Assembly: GCF_004349055.1 (NCBI RefSeq)
Contig: NZ_SMKX01000018.1
Span: 1 to 64,000 of the forward strand
DNA: 64,000 nt
Direction of reading: 5' to 3'
Source: Kribbella antibiotica
GTDB lineage: Bacteria; Actinomycetota; Actinomycetes; Propionibacteriales; Kribbellaceae
In this document: positions 2,405 to 35,458 of the stretch, piece by piece
Layout: each line of letters begins with the position of its first letter
Position numbering within the stretch: position 1 is the first letter of the stretch
Notes under the pieces: generated by a model
Database searches by the model: none
What the model was told of the DNA's origin: nothing
Seen by the model: only the letters and a program-made list of their open reading frames with translations
Program-made: the position numbers and the translations under genes

Positions 2405-6469
<4,065 letters not shown>

Positions 6470-8023: not shown

Positions 8024-9816
<1,793 letters not shown>

Positions 9817-23027: not shown

Positions 23028-23218
23028 CTAGGCACGTCGTTCGACTGGCGTAACGAGTTCGGCGAGCAGTGGGAGGTTTCAGGTTCCATGGAAGTGCGCT
23101 ATTCGCGGCATGTCGCTGCGCTCCTTCCGGCCACAGTGGTGGCCGCCCGCAGGCGCCTGCCTGCGACGTCGCCTGGGCTGCAAGCCACCTCCCAACAGAA
23201 CGTCGGAAGGACGACCCC

Positions 23219-24253
23219 GTGACCCGACCGGACACCCAGCAACTGCGGGTCGCCCTTGAGGCCCTGGTCACCGACCGCGTGACTCCCGGCTATGCAGCAA
23301 TGCTCCGGACGGGCGGGGAAACCGTCGAGCTGTTTGGCGGCACGCTCGACGACGAGGCCGGCTCCGCAGCCCCCGACCGAGACACGGTCTACGACATCGC
23401 CTCCCTCACCAAGGTCGTCGCGACCTGGGGGGTGATGGGACGGCTGGTCGCCGACGGGTCGGTGCGACTCCAGGACCCGGTCTCACGCTTCTTCCCCAAC
23501 GTCCGCCCGGGGTGGGCCAAGCACACTCTGGCCGACCTCCTGCTCCACCGGACGCAGCTACCGACGGCCACGTGGCTCTCGCAGTACGGCGAGGAGCCGG
23601 GAGCGATCCGCACTGGGGTGCTCTCGGCCGAGCCGGTGGACCGTCCGTCCGTGCCGGCTCAGTACCTCAACCGGGGTTACATCGTGCTCGGCTGGGTGGT
23701 CGAGAACGTCGTCGGTGAGCCGTTCGACCAAGTCGTCGCGCGCGAGTGGTGGGGTCCGCTGGGGCTCGGAGACACCCACTTCAACCCGCTCGACGCGGGC
23801 GTCCCCACACGGCGGATCGCTCCCACAGAGCACATAGGCGGCGAGGTCGGCCGACTGCGTGGCGTCGTCCACGACGAGAACGCCCGGTGGCTCGGTGGAG
23901 TCGCCGGCCACGCTGGAGCCTTCAGTACCTTGAGCGACCTGAGCCGGTACGCCGGTCTCGTCGTGGGCGACGATGCCTCGTTGCGGCTCGCGCCCGACTT
24001 CCTGCGTCTCTCGCAGACGCCGGTCGCGGAATGGACCGACGACAGCTACCGCGCGCTCGGCTGGTGGGTCTCCCGAGACGGTCGCCTGGTCCGCCACGAC
24101 GGATTCACCGGCACCACAATCTGCCTCGCACCGCACACCGGAGACGTTGGTGTACTACTCACCAACGCCGTCTACTTCGGTCGACGCAACCCTCGGATGT
24201 CGGCGGTACGTGGCCTGCTTTCGGCGATCATCAGTGGAGGGCACCACCCGTGA
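23219..24253 (+). CDS. Serine hydrolase, class C beta-lactamase/DD-peptidase fold
   Basis: Product of 344 residues, no signal peptide. The active-site SxxK motif is SLTK in YDIASLTKVVATWG (about 60), the second motif is YLN in AQYLNRGYIVLGW (about 147), and HDGFTGT near residue 300 is the H/KxG-type third motif. Such proteins are esterases or D-amino-acid peptidases more often than true beta-lactamases; lack of export supports a cytoplasmic esterase-like role. GTG at 23219 is chosen because AAGGA lies eight bases upstream and the family match starts there. It stands alone between decayed genes and the repeated phoX fragment. Confidence 0.85.
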   Translation: MTRPDTQQLRVALEALVTDRVTPGYAAMLRTGGETVELFGGTLDDEAGSAAPDRDTVYDIASLTKVVATWGVMGRLVADGSVRLQDPVSRFFPNVRPGWAKHTLADLLLHRTQLPTATWLSQYGEEPGAIRTGVLSAEPVDRPSVPAQYLNRGYIVLGWVVENVVGEPFDQVVAREWWGPLGLGDTHFNPLDAGVPTRRIAPTEHIGGEVGRLRGVVHDENARWLGGVAGHAGAFSTLSDLSRYAGLVVGDDASLRLAPDFLRLSQTPVAEWTDDSYRALGWWVSRDGRLVRHDGFTGTTICLAPHTGDVGVLLTNAVYFGRRNPRMSAVRGLLSAIISGGHHP

Positions 24254-24336: not shown

Positions 24337-24543
24337 TCAGCCGCCCACCGGGCCACCACCGCCGGCCCGGTGGGTAAGGCCATCCGCGCCACAGCGGCCT
24401 GCACGGGTGGGCTGCATACCTGTATTGGTTAGCGGCGGCGGCGCCAGGGGCCGGTGATGGCGTAGGTGATGCCGGGGTTGTAGACGTTGAAGAACATGGT
24501 GCGGCCGTCGGTGGAGAAGCCAGTGCCCATCATGGACTGCTCC
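24337..24543. repeat. Left copy of a ~205-bp direct repeat containing the phoX 3' end
   Basis: This stretch matches about 33970-34180 in the same orientation with scattered substitutions and small indels: the terminator hairpin, an unusual spacer (ACAGCGGCCTGCACGGGTGG in both), and the last 35 or so codons of phoX. The hairpin here (CCCACCGGGCC 24344-24354, GGCCCGGTGGG 24364-24374) is a perfect 11-bp stem; in the right copy each arm has one extra base forming a mismatch. Confidence 0.85.
24429..24543 (-). pseudogene. 3' fragment of a phoX gene
   Basis: Codes for the tail GTGFSTDGRTMFFNVYNP, then GITYAITGPWRRRR and a TAA stop, matching the C-terminus of the intact phoX at 34067 almost residue for residue. 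Upstream of this the sequence is unrelated. It cannot encode a functional phosphatase. Bases 24254-24336 hold only a short GC-rich inverted repeat (24291-24308), and 24544-24690 show no coding signal I can name. Confidence 0.85.
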
Positions 24544-24744: not shown

Positions 24745-25953
24745 TCAGGCAGCAACTGCGCCGACTCTCTGAGCAAGCTTCCCCAGCTCACCGCTGGTGA
24801 GTTCGCGCTGCGCCCGTCGTAACAGATGCCCTACCAACTCCTTGACGATGGCCCGCGTGCGAACCTGCTGCGGCGAACAGAGCTCGGCGCGAAGCAGGGC
24901 GGAGATGGCAGCGGAGTAGTTTCCTAGCGCGGCCAGGGCACGCGCCAGCTCCATGAAGTACCGCGACCGCCTGTCATTGGTGACGATCGACTCGGGATTG
25001 AGCGTCTTCGCCAACTCGACAACCTCGCGAGAGTTATGCAGCTCGTTGGCTATGGACATCTGCCAGACGATCACGTTCTCGCGACCAAAGCTCAGCTCAT
25101 AGGCCGAGCCATCCCCAGCGCGCCGGACAGTTTCTACGGCCTCGCGAATGTGCGCTCCAGGGTCCTTGCCTAGGGCAGCGGACGTGAGCGCAGCTTGGAG
25201 ATGAAGCATGCCGTAGAGCTCAAGTTCAGAGGGCGACGTCAGCTCGGATTGCAGTCGGTCGGCTCCACCGGCCGAGTAGCTCAACGAGGCTGTCACGGCG
25301 CCGGCCGTGCCCAGCATGACTTGAGACCGGGCGAACTCGGCGGCGGCCAAACCGCCCGGATCCCCCACCGTTTGCGCCGCCTCGGCTGTTGCCCTCGCCG
25401 CGTTCCAGGCCAGGGATGTATAACCAAGGCCCTTGGTGGCCAGGGCAGTCACGAAGGTTGCCCGGGTCAGCTCCTCGTGAGCCCGCCGCTGCGTTAGCTC
25501 ATCGCCGTCCAACGTGTGCCGATAGAGGTCATTAATCAGGTTGGGCAGTATCCCGCCGAGCGTGGCGTAGTCATTGCTCATCCGGATCTTGAGGGCCCTC
25601 TGCGCGTCGATAGCCAGACGCTCGATGGGCGCCGGATCGCCCGCTTGATCGATGTGCCCCTGGCTCATGAGCGCCGCCTCGATGCGGGGCACCGCAGCGT
25701 GGAAAGCCGCGACATCCGGATTAGCCTTGTCGTCGGCCTGGCCGGTGAGGTCGCAGACCGTGACCTGAAGTGCCTCGGCAAGGCCATACAGCACAGCCCG
25801 GTCGGTAACCGGCCGCAGGCCGCGCTCGTACTGTGCGATAGCACCTTGGGTCTTGCCGACCTTCGCACCGAGTTGCTTCTGCGTCAGGCCGCGTAGGGCG
25901 CGGTACGACTTCACCTGCTGCCCGATGAATCGCTCGTCGTCGATCTCGCGCAT
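24745..25953 (-). CDS. XRE-family regulator with TPR-like C-terminal domain
   Basis: Product of 402 residues. The first 75 residues are a helix-turn-helix of the Cro/CI type (VKSYRALRGLTQKQLGAKVG, GAIAQYERGLRPVTDRAV). The remaining 300 or so residues are helical with TPR-like pairs (AARATAEAAQTVGDPGGLAAAEFARS, SRYFMELARALAALGNYSAAISALL), as in actinomycete regulators that sense peptides or respond to development. The ATG at 25953 has GGAGG only one base upstream, an unusually short gap. It is divergent from three tiny genes and sits in the segment between the two phoX repeats. Such regulators often neighbour RiPP loci, which fits the graspetide remnant 1 kb away; the target is not shown. Confidence 0.82.
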   Translation of the reverse strand: MREIDDERFIGQQVKSYRALRGLTQKQLGAKVGKTQGAIAQYERGLRPVTDRAVLYGLAEALQVTVCDLTGQADDKANPDVAAFHAAVPRIEAALMSQGHIDQAGDPAPIERLAIDAQRALKIRMSNDYATLGGILPNLINDLYRHTLDGDELTQRRAHEELTRATFVTALATKGLGYTSLAWNAARATAEAAQTVGDPGGLAAAEFARSQVMLGTAGAVTASLSYSAGGADRLQSELTSPSELELYGMLHLQAALTSAALGKDPGAHIREAVETVRRAGDGSAYELSFGRENVIVWQMSIANELHNSREVVELAKTLNPESIVTNDRRSRYFMELARALAALGNYSAAISALLRAELCSPQQVRTRAIVKELVGHLLRRAQRELTSGELGKLAQRVGAVAA

Positions 25954-26615: not shown

Positions 26616-26667
26616 CGGAACCGGTACCGCTCCTCACTTCCTCACGGGCGAAGGTACCGGTTCCGTC
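26614..26667 (+). terminator. 15-bp perfect inverted repeat at the end of the small-gene unit
   Basis: GACGGAACCGGTACC (26614-26628) is perfectly complementary to GGTACCGGTTCCGTC (26653-26667), with a 24-base loop. The first base pair overlaps the stop codon of the 72-aa gene. It acts plausibly as a terminator, although no T run follows. Confidence 0.7.
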
Positions 26668-26676
26668 ACCACAGAC

Positions 26677-26759
26677 GGAGCCCTCGATGTGACCCCCGTG
26701 ATCGAGGGCTCCTCAAGACCAGCGGTGGGCGGCCACAGGGCGACTCGTCGCCCACCGCT
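26677..26759 (+). other. Two further perfect hairpins before the 122-aa gene
   Basis: GGAGCCCTCGAT (26677-26688) pairs with ATCGAGGGCTCC (26701-26712), and AGCGGTGGGCG (26721-26731) pairs with CGCCCACCGCT (26749-26759). With the terminator before them this makes three perfect stems in 146 bp. They stand between two genes on the same strand and end 28 bp before the next start codon, so they may be part of its 5' leader. Confidence 0.7.
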
Positions 26760-26787
26760 GTTCCCAACTACCGACGAAGGAGCATCC

Positions 26788-27156
26788 GTGAAGACCCTGG
26801 CGACGACGGTCGGCATGTTTGATCTGACGCCGTTCCGCCGTGGCGAACTGTTCCGCCGTTCGGATGTGTCGGGTGTGAGCGGGACGGGCGTCGTTGCGCA
26901 GGTGGTCTTGTTCGGCAATGGCCTGGTCGCGGTTGGGTGGCTCGGCGACAAGCCGTGTGTCCAGGTCTGGCCATGCCTGGACTGGGGTCTCGGTATCCAC
27001 GGCCACGAAGGCGCGACGGAGATTCGCTGGCTCGCTTCGGACTGGGCGGACTCCTCGCCGACCTGCCGGGATGCCTCTATGTCAATCACCCGAACGCGAT
27101 CGCCGATGCCGAGTACAAACCCGCCCAACTCTCGGCAGCTTCAGCAGCCGGCCTGA
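26788..27156 (+). CDS. Small phage/actinomycete-type hypothetical protein, C-terminus replaced
   Basis: GTG at 26788 has AAGGAG five bases upstream. The first 83 residues include FRRGELFRRSDVSGVSGTGV and DWGLGIHGHEGATEIRWL, a pattern I recall from short conserved proteins of actinobacteria and their phages whose function is unknown. After RWL, where such proteins normally end, the frame runs on for about 40 residues (ASDWADSSPTCRD, then a Ser/Thr/Pro/Arg-rich stretch) through DNA that codes for the ATP-grasp enzyme in another frame. The real C-terminus was therefore probably replaced at a deletion junction near 27030. Confidence 0.5.
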   Translation: MKTLATTVGMFDLTPFRRGELFRRSDVSGVSGTGVVAQVVLFGNGLVAVGWLGDKPCVQVWPCLDWGLGIHGHEGATEIRWLASDWADSSPTCRDASMSITRTRSPMPSTNPPNSRQLQQPA

Positions 27157-27695
27157 CGGTGCCGCCGACGATCATCACGAACGACCCCGGCGAGGCGCTG
27201 GCCTTTGCACGGGGCGTGGGACGGATCGTCTACAAGCCGCTCTACCTCGGCATGCACGAGCGCGACGGCGAGCCCGCGAGCATCTGGGTCAAGGAGGTCT
27301 TCCCAGCGGAGCTGGACGAGTCCATCGCTGGAACCATTCACCTGTTCCAGGCACGCTGCGACAAGGTGGCGGACCTGCGCGTGACAGTCATCGGTGACCA
27401 TGTGTTCTGCGTCAGAATCGAGTCCAAGGACCCTGAACTGCTGGACTGGCGGTACGACTACGACACGCTGTCCTACTCGGTGGTTGAGCCGCCACTCGAA
27501 CTGATCGAGGGCATGCGTACCTATCTGAAGCGATTCGATCTCGTCTTCGGCTGCTTCGACTTCGCCGTTACCCGAGAAGGTGCCCCCATCTTCCTGGAAT
27601 GCAACCCCAACGGGCAGTGGGGATGGCTGGAAGACGAAACTGGACTCCCGATGACTGCCGCCCTCGCCGATCTACTCGAAAGAGGTACACGATGA
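27030..27695 (+). pseudogene. ATP-grasp RiPP ligase (graspetide TgmB-like), N-terminally truncated
   Basis: From 27033 the frame reads RFGLGGLLADLPG, YVNHPNAIADAEYKPAQL, GRIVYKPLYLG, KVADLRVTVIGDHVF, then FGCFDFAVTREGAPIFLECN and NGQWGWLEDETGLP, the central and C-terminal parts of the actinomycete ATP-grasp peptide maturases (SAV_5884/TgmB type) that form ester or amide cross-links in graspetides. ATP- and Mg-binding residues at the C-terminus (FLECNPNGQ) are kept. The N-terminal 90-100 residues, including the peptide-binding part, are missing and there is no start codon with a ribosome site in frame; upstream DNA belongs to another small gene in a different frame. The end overlaps the methyltransferase start (ATGA). 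Expression is doubtful. Confidence 0.75.
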
Positions 27696-28909
27696 CCGTC
27701 GAACCGGACGACGGCTCGACAAAAGCACTCCGGCTGCGGCTAGCCGACGCACTCGGAAAGTCAGGAGACCTGCGCACCCAGGCATGGCGTGCGGCAGTCG
27801 AGACCGTACCCCGGGAAACGTTCATCCCAGGCTTCTTCGAGGCGATCGACGATCCGCGGGAAACGATGTGGCGCCCGGTCACCCCCGACTTGGTCAGTAC
27901 GCGTGAGCGACTTGAACTGACATACACCAACGAGACCTGGGTGACACAACTCAACCACGAGATCAGCGCCTTCGACACCGACGCGCCAATCCCCGGCGTC
28001 CCAACCTCATCGTCCACGCTACCGGGGCTGGTGGTGCGGATGCTGGAGGAGCTTCACGTCGGCAATGACGATCGGGTACTCGAAATCGGGACAGGTACCG
28101 GGTACTCGACCGGACTGATGTGCGCCCGGCTCGGTCAGGAATTCGTGACCTCGGTCGAGGTAGATCCCGCTGTCGCCGGCCGCGCCAAACAGGGACTCGC
28201 GGCGGCCGGGTTCGCCCCCGACCTAGTCGTTGGTGACGGCCTTGTCGGGCATCAGCCCGGAGCACTGTACGACCGAGTGATTGCCACCTGCTCAGTCCGG
28301 CACATTCCCGATGCATGGATCGCCCAGACGCGGCCCGGAGGTCTGATCCTGACAACCATGCTCGGCTGGCTCGGAGCATCGTCCGGGCTGGTCCGGCTGG
28401 AAGTAACTGGCGGCGGAAAGGCTGAAGGCGTATTCCTCGGGGGTACGGACTCGTTCATGCCAGCCAGGCCCCACGCCGCGCCGCCGATCAGCGACGACCT
28501 GTCCTCCTGGATCGATGATGTCGACACCACCGAGCGCTATACCGATGTCGGCCCTGAGATCCTAGACCCCTGGGACGCAATAACGCCGATCTTCATCGCC
28601 CAACTGGCAGCCCCTGCGGCGCAGCTACTCAGCTACAGCCTGGACGACGGACCGATGCTTGATCACGTGGTGGACGCTAGCCAACGGGCCGTCGCCATCC
28701 TCTATGCGCCACCCAACGGCTCCGCTGTCGTTCGGCAGGCCGGGCCGGTCAACCTGTGGGACCAGATCGAGATGGCAGTCCTAGAGTGGCTAGCCGCCGG
28801 CTCCCCGGCGCTCGATCAGTTCCGGATCAGCATCACACCAGAAGCCCAGATGGTTTGGTACGGCGACCCAAATGGACCGCTGTCATGGAACTTGCCGACG
28901 ATCAGGTGA
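27692..28909 (+). CDS. PIMT-like methyltransferase of the ATP-grasp peptide system (graspetide/imiditide)
   Basis: Product of 405 residues. The N-terminal 220 residues are a protein-L-isoaspartate O-methyltransferase (PIMT)-type domain: SSSTLPGLVVRMLEEL, then DRVLEIGTGTGYSTGLM (SAM motif I), TSVEVDP and GDGLVG. The C-terminal 180 residues are an extension found in methyltransferases encoded beside RiPP ATP-grasp enzymes. In the fuscimiditide system of Thermobifida such an enzyme methylates an Asp side chain of the ester-linked peptide so that it cyclises to aspartimide. The ATG overlaps the stop of the truncated ATP-grasp gene, showing the original operon. No precursor peptide gene is visible, so its substrate is either elsewhere or lost. 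Confidence 0.82.
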   Translation: MTVEPDDGSTKALRLRLADALGKSGDLRTQAWRAAVETVPRETFIPGFFEAIDDPRETMWRPVTPDLVSTRERLELTYTNETWVTQLNHEISAFDTDAPIPGVPTSSSTLPGLVVRMLEELHVGNDDRVLEIGTGTGYSTGLMCARLGQEFVTSVEVDPAVAGRAKQGLAAAGFAPDLVVGDGLVGHQPGALYDRVIATCSVRHIPDAWIAQTRPGGLILTTMLGWLGASSGLVRLEVTGGGKAEGVFLGGTDSFMPARPHAAPPISDDLSSWIDDVDTTERYTDVGPEILDPWDAITPIFIAQLAAPAAQLLSYSLDDGPMLDHVVDASQRAVAILYAPPNGSAVVRQAGPVNLWDQIEMAVLEWLAAGSPALDQFRISITPEAQMVWYGDPNGPLSWNLPTIR

Positions 28910-33969: not shown

Positions 33970-34180
33970 GTCAGCTGCCCACCAGGGCCAGCAGCCGCCG
34001 GCCCGGGTGGGTAAGGCCACCCGCGCCACAGCGGCCTGCACGGGTGGGCTTGCCTCCTCAGCCGAGTTAGCGGCGGCGGCGCCAGGGGCCGGTGATGGCG
34101 TAGGTGATGCCGGGGTTGTAGACGTTGAAGAACATGGTGCGGCCGTCGGCGGAGAAGCCGGCGCCCGTCAGCTCGCCGTA
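33970..34180. repeat. Right copy of the phoX 3'-end direct repeat
   Basis: This copy contains the end of the intact phoX gene and its terminator (CCCACCAGGGCC 33977-33988, GGCCCGGGTGGG 33999-34010, one A-G mismatch). The left copy is at 24337-24543 in the same orientation, so about 9.4 kb lies between them. Confidence 0.85.
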
Positions 34181-35458
34181 CTCGGGGTCTTCGGGGGTGC
34201 CGGTGTTGACCGTGTTCTTGGCGAACTTGAAGACCTTGCCGTCTTCGGTGGTGCCGAGGATGTGCTGGTCGCCGATGCCGTCTTCGCACATCATCAGACC
34301 GCCGTACGGCGACATGGTGATGTTGTCGGGGGCATCGAACTCGGGGTTGTCCGAGCCGGGCTTGTCGCGCTTGAAGATGACCTCGAGGCGGAGCGTGCCC
34401 TTGCGGGGGTCGTAGCGCCAGACCTGGCCGTCGTGGTCGATCTTCGGGCCTAGCTCGGTGCGGGCGAAGGAGGAGACGAAGTAGACGCAGCGGTCGCGGG
34501 TGCCCCACCAGCAGCCTTCGAGTTTGTAGCCGCCGGTGATGGGCTTCTTGTACGCCTGGGCGCGGACCGACTCGGTCTTGGCGAGCGGGTCGGGGACCTT
34601 GACCCACTGGACGCCGTGGAAGATCGTGCCGGCTTCCTGGACGGTCGACATGTCGAGGAGGCCGGGGATGTGCATGGCCTGGAGTTCGCCGCCGTGGCGC
34701 AGGGAGCCCCAGCCGCCGCGGGGGCGGTTCGGGAGGAAGCGGTAGAAGCCGCCGAGGGGCGCGACGAAGGCGTCTTCGGTCTCGTAGACGATTCCGGTTG
34801 CCGGGTCGATCGCGACGGCCTCGTGCTGGAAGCGGCCCATCTCCTTCAAAGGAAAGGGATTGTTGTTGCGGCGGTCGTCGTACGGGTCGACCTCGAAGAT
34901 GAAGCCGTGGTCCTTGGTGTAGCCGCTCTGACCGGCCTTGAGCTCGGTCTCTTCGCAGGTCAGCCAGGTGCGCCACGGGGTGATGCCGCCGGAACAGTTG
35001 ATCGCCGTACCGCCGAGGCTGACGTACTCCTTGGTCGTTCGGTGGTGCCGGTTCACGACCAGGCTGCTGGTGCCGCCGGCAGCGCCCGGGTCGTACGTCC
35101 GCTCCGGCGGTGCGACGACCTTGATCGTCGAGGTCGGGCTGCACTCGTGGTTGCGGACGAGGCGCGAGCCGCCGTCGCGGTCCGGGAAGGTACCCATGCC
35201 GTCGAAGCGGCTCGGGACCTTCAGCCCGTCCGGGCGGACTGTGCCTTCACGCGACAGGATGTCGTAGCGGAAGCCGCGCGGCAGGTCGAGCATGCCGTCC
35301 GGGTCCGGGATCAGCGGACCGTAGCCGATCTTCGGCCCGGACGTACCGAGCGCCGGCTGCGCGGTGAACAGCGCTTCGACGGATCCCGCCACAGTGACCG
35401 CGGCTCCGGCCGCTGCGGCGGTACCGACGAACTGACGCCTGGACAAAGACGAGGACAT
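34067..35458 (-). CDS. phoX: PhoX-type (DUF839) secreted alkaline phosphatase
   Basis: Product of 463 residues. The N-terminus MSSSLSRRQFVGTAAAAGA is a Tat signal, as required for PhoX enzymes that fold with iron and calcium in the cytoplasm. The rest is a DUF839 beta-propeller: LVRNHECSPTST, TWLTCEETE, FQHEAVAIDPATG, ETEDAFVAPLGGFYRF, DNITMSPYGGLMMCEDG. PhoX releases phosphate from organic esters outside the cell. GGGAGG lies about eight bases before the ATG. Four 11-bp PHO-box repeats lie upstream, so it is probably activated by PhoP under phosphate limitation. The 3' end is duplicated at 24.4 kb. Confidence 0.9.
   Translation of the reverse strand: MSSSLSRRQFVGTAAAAGAAVTVAGSVEALFTAQPALGTSGPKIGYGPLIPDPDGMLDLPRGFRYDILSREGTVRPDGLKVPSRFDGMGTFPDRDGGSRLVRNHECSPTSTIKVVAPPERTYDPGAAGGTSSLVVNRHHRTTKEYVSLGGTAINCSGGITPWRTWLTCEETELKAGQSGYTKDHGFIFEVDPYDDRRNNNPFPLKEMGRFQHEAVAIDPATGIVYETEDAFVAPLGGFYRFLPNRPRGGWGSLRHGGELQAMHIPGLLDMSTVQEAGTIFHGVQWVKVPDPLAKTESVRAQAYKKPITGGYKLEGCWWGTRDRCVYFVSSFARTELGPKIDHDGQVWRYDPRKGTLRLEVIFKRDKPGSDNPEFDAPDNITMSPYGGLMMCEDGIGDQHILGTTEDGKVFKFAKNTVNTGTPEDPEYGELTGAGFSADGRTMFFNVYNPGITYAITGPWRRRR

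Follow-up and report, generated by a model that had tools for sequence, protein, structure and literature searches.

A decayed graspetide locus in Kribbella antibiotica: probable loss of the precursor and of the maturase N-terminal domain beside a complete PIMT-like methyltransferase

Introduction

In the group 13 graspetide (graspimiditide) clusters of actinobacteria, such as those of fuscimiditide, amycolimiditide and albusimiditide, the gene of a TIGR04187 ATP-grasp maturase is followed by that of a TIGR04188 methyltransferase, and the two are coupled through an ATGA overlap. The available text of PMC8939145 lists TIGR04188 as the PIMT of ATP-grasp loci that is specific to ribosomally synthesized and post-translationally modified peptides (RiPPs), and the WXXXGXP motif of RiPP-associated PIMT homologs is defined in PMC13001092, which in the portion available also states that graspetide methyltransferases modify cross-linked peptides only, not linear precursors. 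Imiditides, or type I pamtides, are made from a precursor and a PIMT-like methyltransferase only. Orphans of the methyltransferase family are already known, as 3,653 of 9,408 such enzymes had no RiPP association of any kind in a survey, according to its accessible text (PMC10787088). Here, we describe a locus of the group 13 type in Kribbella antibiotica, in which a maturase gene without its front part stands before a complete methyltransferase gene. The locus lies in a stretch of 64,000 nucleotides (hereafter, the window; positions 1 to 64,000 of NZ_SMKX01000018.1, assembly GCF_004349055.1) on a contig of 89,883 bases (C99), which belongs to a 9.28-Mb draft genome of 348 contigs.

A truncated maturase coupled to a complete methyltransferase

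The plus-strand frame at 26937–27695 matches the maturase profile TIGR04187 over positions 95–312 of 312 only (286.9 bits; cut-off 350), and in the genome-wide profile search the match spans 27030–27680. The window thus lacks the full-length maturase of a TIGR04187/TIGR04188-type graspetide cluster, and the proposal of an initial annotation that the N-terminal third is missing agrees with the profile. On the intact maturase encoded by another contig of the same genome (C27), the Pfam family PF21068 covers residues 11–117, whereas Pfam gives no match on the window remnant. The remnant is nonetheless more than a chance resemblance, since its protein is 84 per cent identical to the maturase of K. 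sandramycini and 85 per cent identical to the C27 paralog. Its sole in-frame start upstream is a GTG at 26937, which lies inside the preceding gene (small gene 4; Table 1).

The adjoining gene encodes a group 13 methyltransferase that scores 411.9 bits against TIGR04188 (curated cut-off 380; positions 1–362 of 363) and 74.4 bits against PF01135 (residues 105–220); by sequence matching, solved PIMT structures correspond to about residues 90–236. The protein carries the S-adenosylmethionine (SAM) motif VLEIGTGTG at residue 129 and WLAAGSP at residue 366 of 405, and hence both the PIMT fold core and the C-terminal extension with WXXXGXP that characterize a PAMT. The ATGA overlap noted initially is present, and the ATG is also preceded by a ribosome-site-like sequence of its own, GAAAGAGG.

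No precursor gene accompanies the pair: the TIGR04186 precursor profile, run against the whole genome as the initial annotation had advised, gave nothing on C99 at E <= 1, its only matches being the C27 precursor and a frame on C329. By eye, we recognized no imiditide or pamtide precursor, which would be short and Gly/Pro/Asp-rich or of the zinc-ribbon kind, among nearby frames of at least 50 amino acids, a limit below which type I precursors (~45 amino acids) fall, and no profile for such precursors was run. Of the 'graspetide/imiditide' label in the initial annotation, the graspetide part holds through TIGR04188, whereas nothing supports the imiditide part.

Intact counterparts and the deletion junction

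The nearest relative of the window locus is the one on C27 (L007), which has the precursor, a 321-amino-acid maturase and the methyltransferase in that order, all intact, and which is 85 per cent (maturase) and 77 per cent (methyltransferase) identical to the window. It carries two of the small genes found upstream in the window, but small gene 4 was not found there. The C27 precursor scores 45.9 bits against TIGR04186 (cut-off 25) and is the sole match in the genome above the cut-off. Intact loci also occur in K. sandramycini (L051), with the same order and the same length of maturase, and in SID13031 (L052, from a record labelled Streptomyces sp.). The order in L052 (divergent regulator, small genes 1–3, precursor, maturase and methyltransferase) is that of the window with the precursor and the maturase front added. 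On C329, a further locus of the K. antibiotica genome has small gene 1, small gene 3 and a small gene 4 in decay, followed by a 93-amino-acid frame that resembles a precursor, an intact maturase and the methyltransferase.

These loci bracket the break. The end of small gene 4 in C329 reads CGCTGGCTCGAC, and intact maturases at the codons for Gln100-Ala101-Arg102 read CAGGCTCGTTTC (C27) and CAGGCTCGCTTC (L052); the window junction reads CGCTGGCTCGCTTC, with GGCTCG at 27029–27034. The alignment of the window with C329 covers the leader and the first part of small gene 4, and in C329 the interval between the equivalent junction points is 744 nucleotides. In the window, the conserved core of small gene 4 is complete to about 27034 and stops at the junction, its 3' end being replaced by maturase DNA in another frame (small gene 4 in frame 0, the remnant in frame 2), which bears out the out-of-frame join placed near 27030 at the outset. 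Because the two are out of frame, a protein begun at the small gene 4 start (AAGGAG-GTG) would end at 27156.

We conclude that the precursor and the maturase N-terminal domain were very probably lost through one deletion of roughly 0.75 kb, and that the methyltransferase is what remains of a graspetide cluster. The ancestral locus would have been a group 13-type cluster in which a regulator and small genes preceded the precursor, the ATP-grasp maturase and the PIMT-like methyltransferase. A single deletion would then have fused the end of small gene 4 with about codon 101 of the maturase at their common GGCTCG, taking out the precursor gene and the pre-ATP-grasp domain. That the deletion included the precursor, as had been suggested, fits the intact loci of this genome and its relatives, which have a precursor and a full maturase, and C329, where small gene 4 precedes both. 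With the small gene 4 frame ending within the remnant and the remnant frame having no start of its own, the window locus would produce neither an active maturase nor a precursor.

Truncated maturases recur in Kribbella

Across 38 Kribbella genomes, we classed 42 methyltransferase entries: an intact maturase adjoins 32 of them, an N-truncated one adjoins 5, and the remaining 5 have none. The count leaves aside the locus of G024, with both of its genes fragmented, and G027:C47, with a fragmented methyltransferase, as well as short pieces of methyltransferase in G002 and all matches below about 212 bits, which are other PIMT-like proteins. The N-truncated state accordingly accounts for 5 of the 37 Kribbella loci with both genes. 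Three of the five are in the genome of the window (the window itself, C275 and C151), with one each in G031 and G008, and the methyltransferase frame is full length in every one. Profile matches to the maturase begin at position 88 on C275 (L008, 6754–7460) and at position 228 on C151 (L011, 8177–8440), each followed by a full-length methyltransferase.

In the methyltransferase tree, the five truncated loci occupy five places, with five label changes, at least four of which are forced by well-supported branches; from their placement, the truncations appear to have arisen as separate events. Neighbors at the junction are also unlike that of the window, being an acetyltransferase frame in C275 and a reductase-like frame (named by eye) in G031, both on the opposite strand. 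In the maturase alignment, the C275 break lies within about 3 codons of the window break, a coincidence that was spotted post hoc.

Decay takes other forms as well: G012 retains the maturase front alone (positions 1–76, with a stop) and G011 has a split maturase. Two intact maturases (in G025 and G002) have no methyltransferase within 6 kb, and G018, G026 and G034 have full-length but lower-scoring maturases (165–168 bits), near which our list holds only weak, distant methyltransferase matches. These counts give a weak hint of an asymmetry in which the methyltransferase outlasts the maturase.

In a wider comparison, which took the best 80 of 125 related loci in named genomes, no clean N-terminal deletion was found; within these 80, the frame is broken in L056, L091 and L094, an internal deletion is present in L102 and L116 leaves its contig. 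A sample of 246 genomes of the class yielded one more case by eye (G053, with the maturase from position 135, one stop and a full-length methyltransferase adjoining); no systematic count was made of this sample, in which other fragments (G151, G072) also occur.

In two loci of the K. antibiotica genome, a second PIMT-like methyltransferase follows the first on the minus strand: on C275 (L008, 4328–5539; PCMT 142.5 bits) and, as a weaker match, on C27 (L007, about 5086–5583).

Age of the break and the fate of the methyltransferase

Codons of the window were compared with those of C27, K. sandramycini and SID13031, by a crude four-sequence count of unique codons in which synonymous distances are large (0.5–1.5) and partly saturated. 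Codons found only in the window remnant comprise 14 synonymous and 4 amino-acid-changing ones (4/18), with no stops, as compared to 40 and 17 (17/57) in the intact maturases of the three relatives (Fisher P-value = 0.76). Full neutrality, under which the amino-acid-changing share would be near 0.73, is rejected for the remnant (P-value = 1e-5), and in a mixed model the neutral part of its branch is at most about a third (at the 5 per cent level). The methyltransferase gives a similar picture (14 synonymous and 7 amino-acid-changing, 7/21, vs. 21/78 in the others; P-value = 0.59). Tip lengths are 0.099 for the remnant (sisters 0.091 and 0.07) and 0.15 for the window methyltransferase (sister 0.17). 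Given neither stops nor an excess of amino-acid changes in the remnant, either the break is recent relative to the split from the C27 paralog or the remnant is still under selection; we prefer a recent break. The intact methyltransferase is for the same reason no proof of a continuing role, since the remnant is unrelaxed too and too little time may have passed since the break for it to have left a trace. We considered whether selection on the methyltransferase proves an orphan function and did not accept this, as the remnant has the same codon pattern.

Several observations weigh against the single deletion. Its exact ancestor, with small gene 4 followed by a C27-like precursor, is missing from the loci compared, and the reconstruction takes its upstream part from C329 and its downstream part from C27 and K. 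sandramycini. The 93-amino-acid frame of C329 scores 18.5 bits against TIGR04186, under the cut-off of 25. Three of the six maturase loci in this genome are broken alike, and in two of these the maturase positions of the breaks agree to within about 3 codons, which exceeds what simple random decay would predict. The constraint on the remnant fits a recent break but is also compatible with a remnant that still has a function. Lastly, the junction is known from a draft assembly, so that an assembly error is formally conceivable.

Under the deletion reading, the most likely state of the methyltransferase is that of an idle leftover, whose activity might at most extend to the peptide made by the intact C27 locus. 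It may be an orphan with a function, but that selection keeps it working in trans, with the cross-linked peptide of C27 as the most likely substrate and some other protein as the alternative, seems to us unlikely. In its favor, the frame is full length with both the SAM and the WXXXGXP motifs, the same holds for frame length at all five truncated loci, and in four of the five the methyltransferase tips resemble those of their sisters (0.15 vs. 0.17; 0.19 vs. 0.21; 0.46 vs. 0.46; 0.17 vs. 0.16). The G008 tip, however, exceeds its sisters (0.32 vs. 0.10 and 0.12), and methyltransferases without a maturase include long tips (1.74, 1.27 and 0.71) or short proteins (297 and 317 amino acids), as decay predicts. 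The remnant is moreover as unrelaxed as the methyltransferase, so that constraint says nothing about function after the break, and the C27 locus already has a methyltransferase of its own. Since studied graspetide methyltransferases need cross-linked peptides (as given in the available part of PMC13001092), the window enzyme would have no substrate from its own locus, and the C27 product would be the most plausible one remaining.

A broader form of the same idea, which we regard as improbable, is that Kribbella loci shed the precursor and the maturase N-terminus while the methyltransferase is kept for a second role in trans, on other graspetide peptides or a cellular protein. Were it true, the window and C275, broken independently near one domain boundary and with unrelaxed selection, would both exemplify it within a single genome.

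It is very unlikely that the junction is an assembly or sequencing artifact and the true locus intact. The draft consists of many contigs, and it is unusual to find as many as three broken maturases in a single genome; but the join lies in the middle of C99, between two parts of one locus type, at a 6-base identity. An identity of 6 bases would be too short for the usual short-read assembly error. Nor can about 100 residues and a precursor gene vanish by a frameshift. A query with the N-terminal domain (C27 residues 1–100) gave no match within 1.5 kb upstream of the remnant (L001, E <= 1e-3) and, genome-wide, matched only the three intact loci (E <= 0.1), with no detached domain elsewhere. A frameshift or a mis-called start is thereby rejected, and no full N-terminal domain hidden by a sequencing error came to light, the outcome that would have told against the initial annotation.

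Likewise very unlikely is that the remnant works as a short ATP-grasp protein that dispenses with the pre-ATP-grasp domain and is translated from an internal start, with recurrent breaks at the domain boundary favored by selection: the proximity of the window and C275 breaks, remnants that are not accelerated (0.099 and 0.097, respectively) and an ATG five residues past the C275 junction speak for it, but the window remnant has no good start, its only upstream in-frame one being the GTG within small gene 4, the alignments between the intact protein and its six matches of solved structure extend over the N-terminal domain too, and the C151, G031 and G008 remnants (from positions 228, 239 and 259 of 312) are too short for ATP-grasp enzymes.

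Upstream cassette and genomic surroundings

The features of the locus are collected in Table 1. The regulator is single-copy in the genome at E <= 1e-3, and a relative with 27 per cent identity occupies the equivalent place in L052. The start of small gene 3, a GTG, was picked by eye.

Table 1. Features of the graspetide locus in the window, in order of position.
Feature	Position	Strand	Basis
XRE/HTH regulator, divergent, 402 amino acids, heads the locus	24745..25953	-	HTH_3, 42.3 bits
Small gene 1, 65 amino acids	26055..26252	+	Relatives upstream of intact maturases: own C329 (54 per cent), L052 (59 per cent)
Small gene 2, 59 amino acids	26221..26400	+	Relatives upstream of precursor and maturase: own C27 (58 per cent), L052 (68 per cent)
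Small gene 3, about 64 amino acids	26421..26615	+	Relatives in own C27, own C329 and L052 (46–59 per cent)
Small gene 4, phrog_7499 family	26788..27156	+	phrog_7499, 69.1 bits; AAGGAG ahead of GTG
Probable deletion junction, 6-base microhomology GGCTCG	27029..27034	+	GGCTCG in both parent types
ATP-grasp maturase remnant	27030..27695	+	TIGR04187; pre-ATP-grasp domain at the N-terminus absent (residues 1 to about 100 in C27 numbering)
Complete PIMT-like (PAMT) methyltransferase, 405 amino acids	27692..28909	+	TIGR04188, PF01135, motifs

Small gene 4 was initially described as a phage-type protein, and the phrog_7499 match agrees with that; as a piece that came in from elsewhere, it does not stand. 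A decayed copy precedes the precursor and the intact maturase in C329, and the 175-nucleotide leader is conserved before that locus (79.6 per cent identical), which makes small gene 4 a long-standing part of the locus. An incoming phage gene that replaced the maturase front was thus rejected as a simple reading. Besides the broken C329 copy, the genome holds six other complete or near-complete relatives of small gene 4 (26788–27034) at E <= 1.3e-5. Within the leader, 26625–26772 folds into strong hairpins (z = -3.7) that are kept in C329 (z = -5.6). A Rfam scan gave two matches only, both below threshold; a sub-threshold CRISPR-repeat match (28.9 bits, gathering 39) overlaps one leader hairpin.

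A direct repeat of ~165 bp (24366–24532 and 34003–34170; two blocks, each 96 per cent identical, at a spacing of 9,637–9,638) copies the 3' end of the PhoX gene at 34067–35458 and flanks the 9.6 kb containing the graspetide locus. In five relatives, similarity to the window ends at the PhoX 3' end, and nothing of 24.5–34 kb is present in the 17–18 kb examined. By this comparison, 24.5–34 kb looks like an island attached to PhoX. The beta-lactamase-fold protein (PF00144) at 23069–24253 was found in only this genome among the 38 of the genus at E <= 1e-60.

Comparison with known systems

A deletion would account for the odd gene pair. Cluster mining by the methyltransferase or by the C-terminal domain of the maturase will score dead loci as live. 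The recurrence of the truncated state (5/37 loci) opens a testable question: do PIMT-like RiPP methyltransferases stay active after their own locus breaks, for example on a paralogous product? No paper on Kribbella graspetides was found in the literature searched, which does not amount to absence from print.

With the group 13 clusters, the window shares the gene order, the ATGA coupling, the actinobacterial host and a methyltransferase with the C-terminal extension and WXXXGXP; unlike them, it has neither a precursor gene nor the maturase N-terminal domain, and the cross-linked substrate cannot be made. It resembles the imiditides and type I pamtides in having a RiPP-type methyltransferase and no working maturase, but no imiditide-like precursor was seen adjoining, a maturase remnant is still attached and the methyltransferase nests among maturase-linked ones, as sister to that of C27. 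For the Branch 8 loci, PMC8939145 likewise describes an ATP-grasp protein that is truncated and catalytically inactive; the window differs in that it is the N-terminal domain that is lost. Set beside these systems, the window is an ordinary case of decay of a known cluster type, of which the recurrence is modestly interesting.
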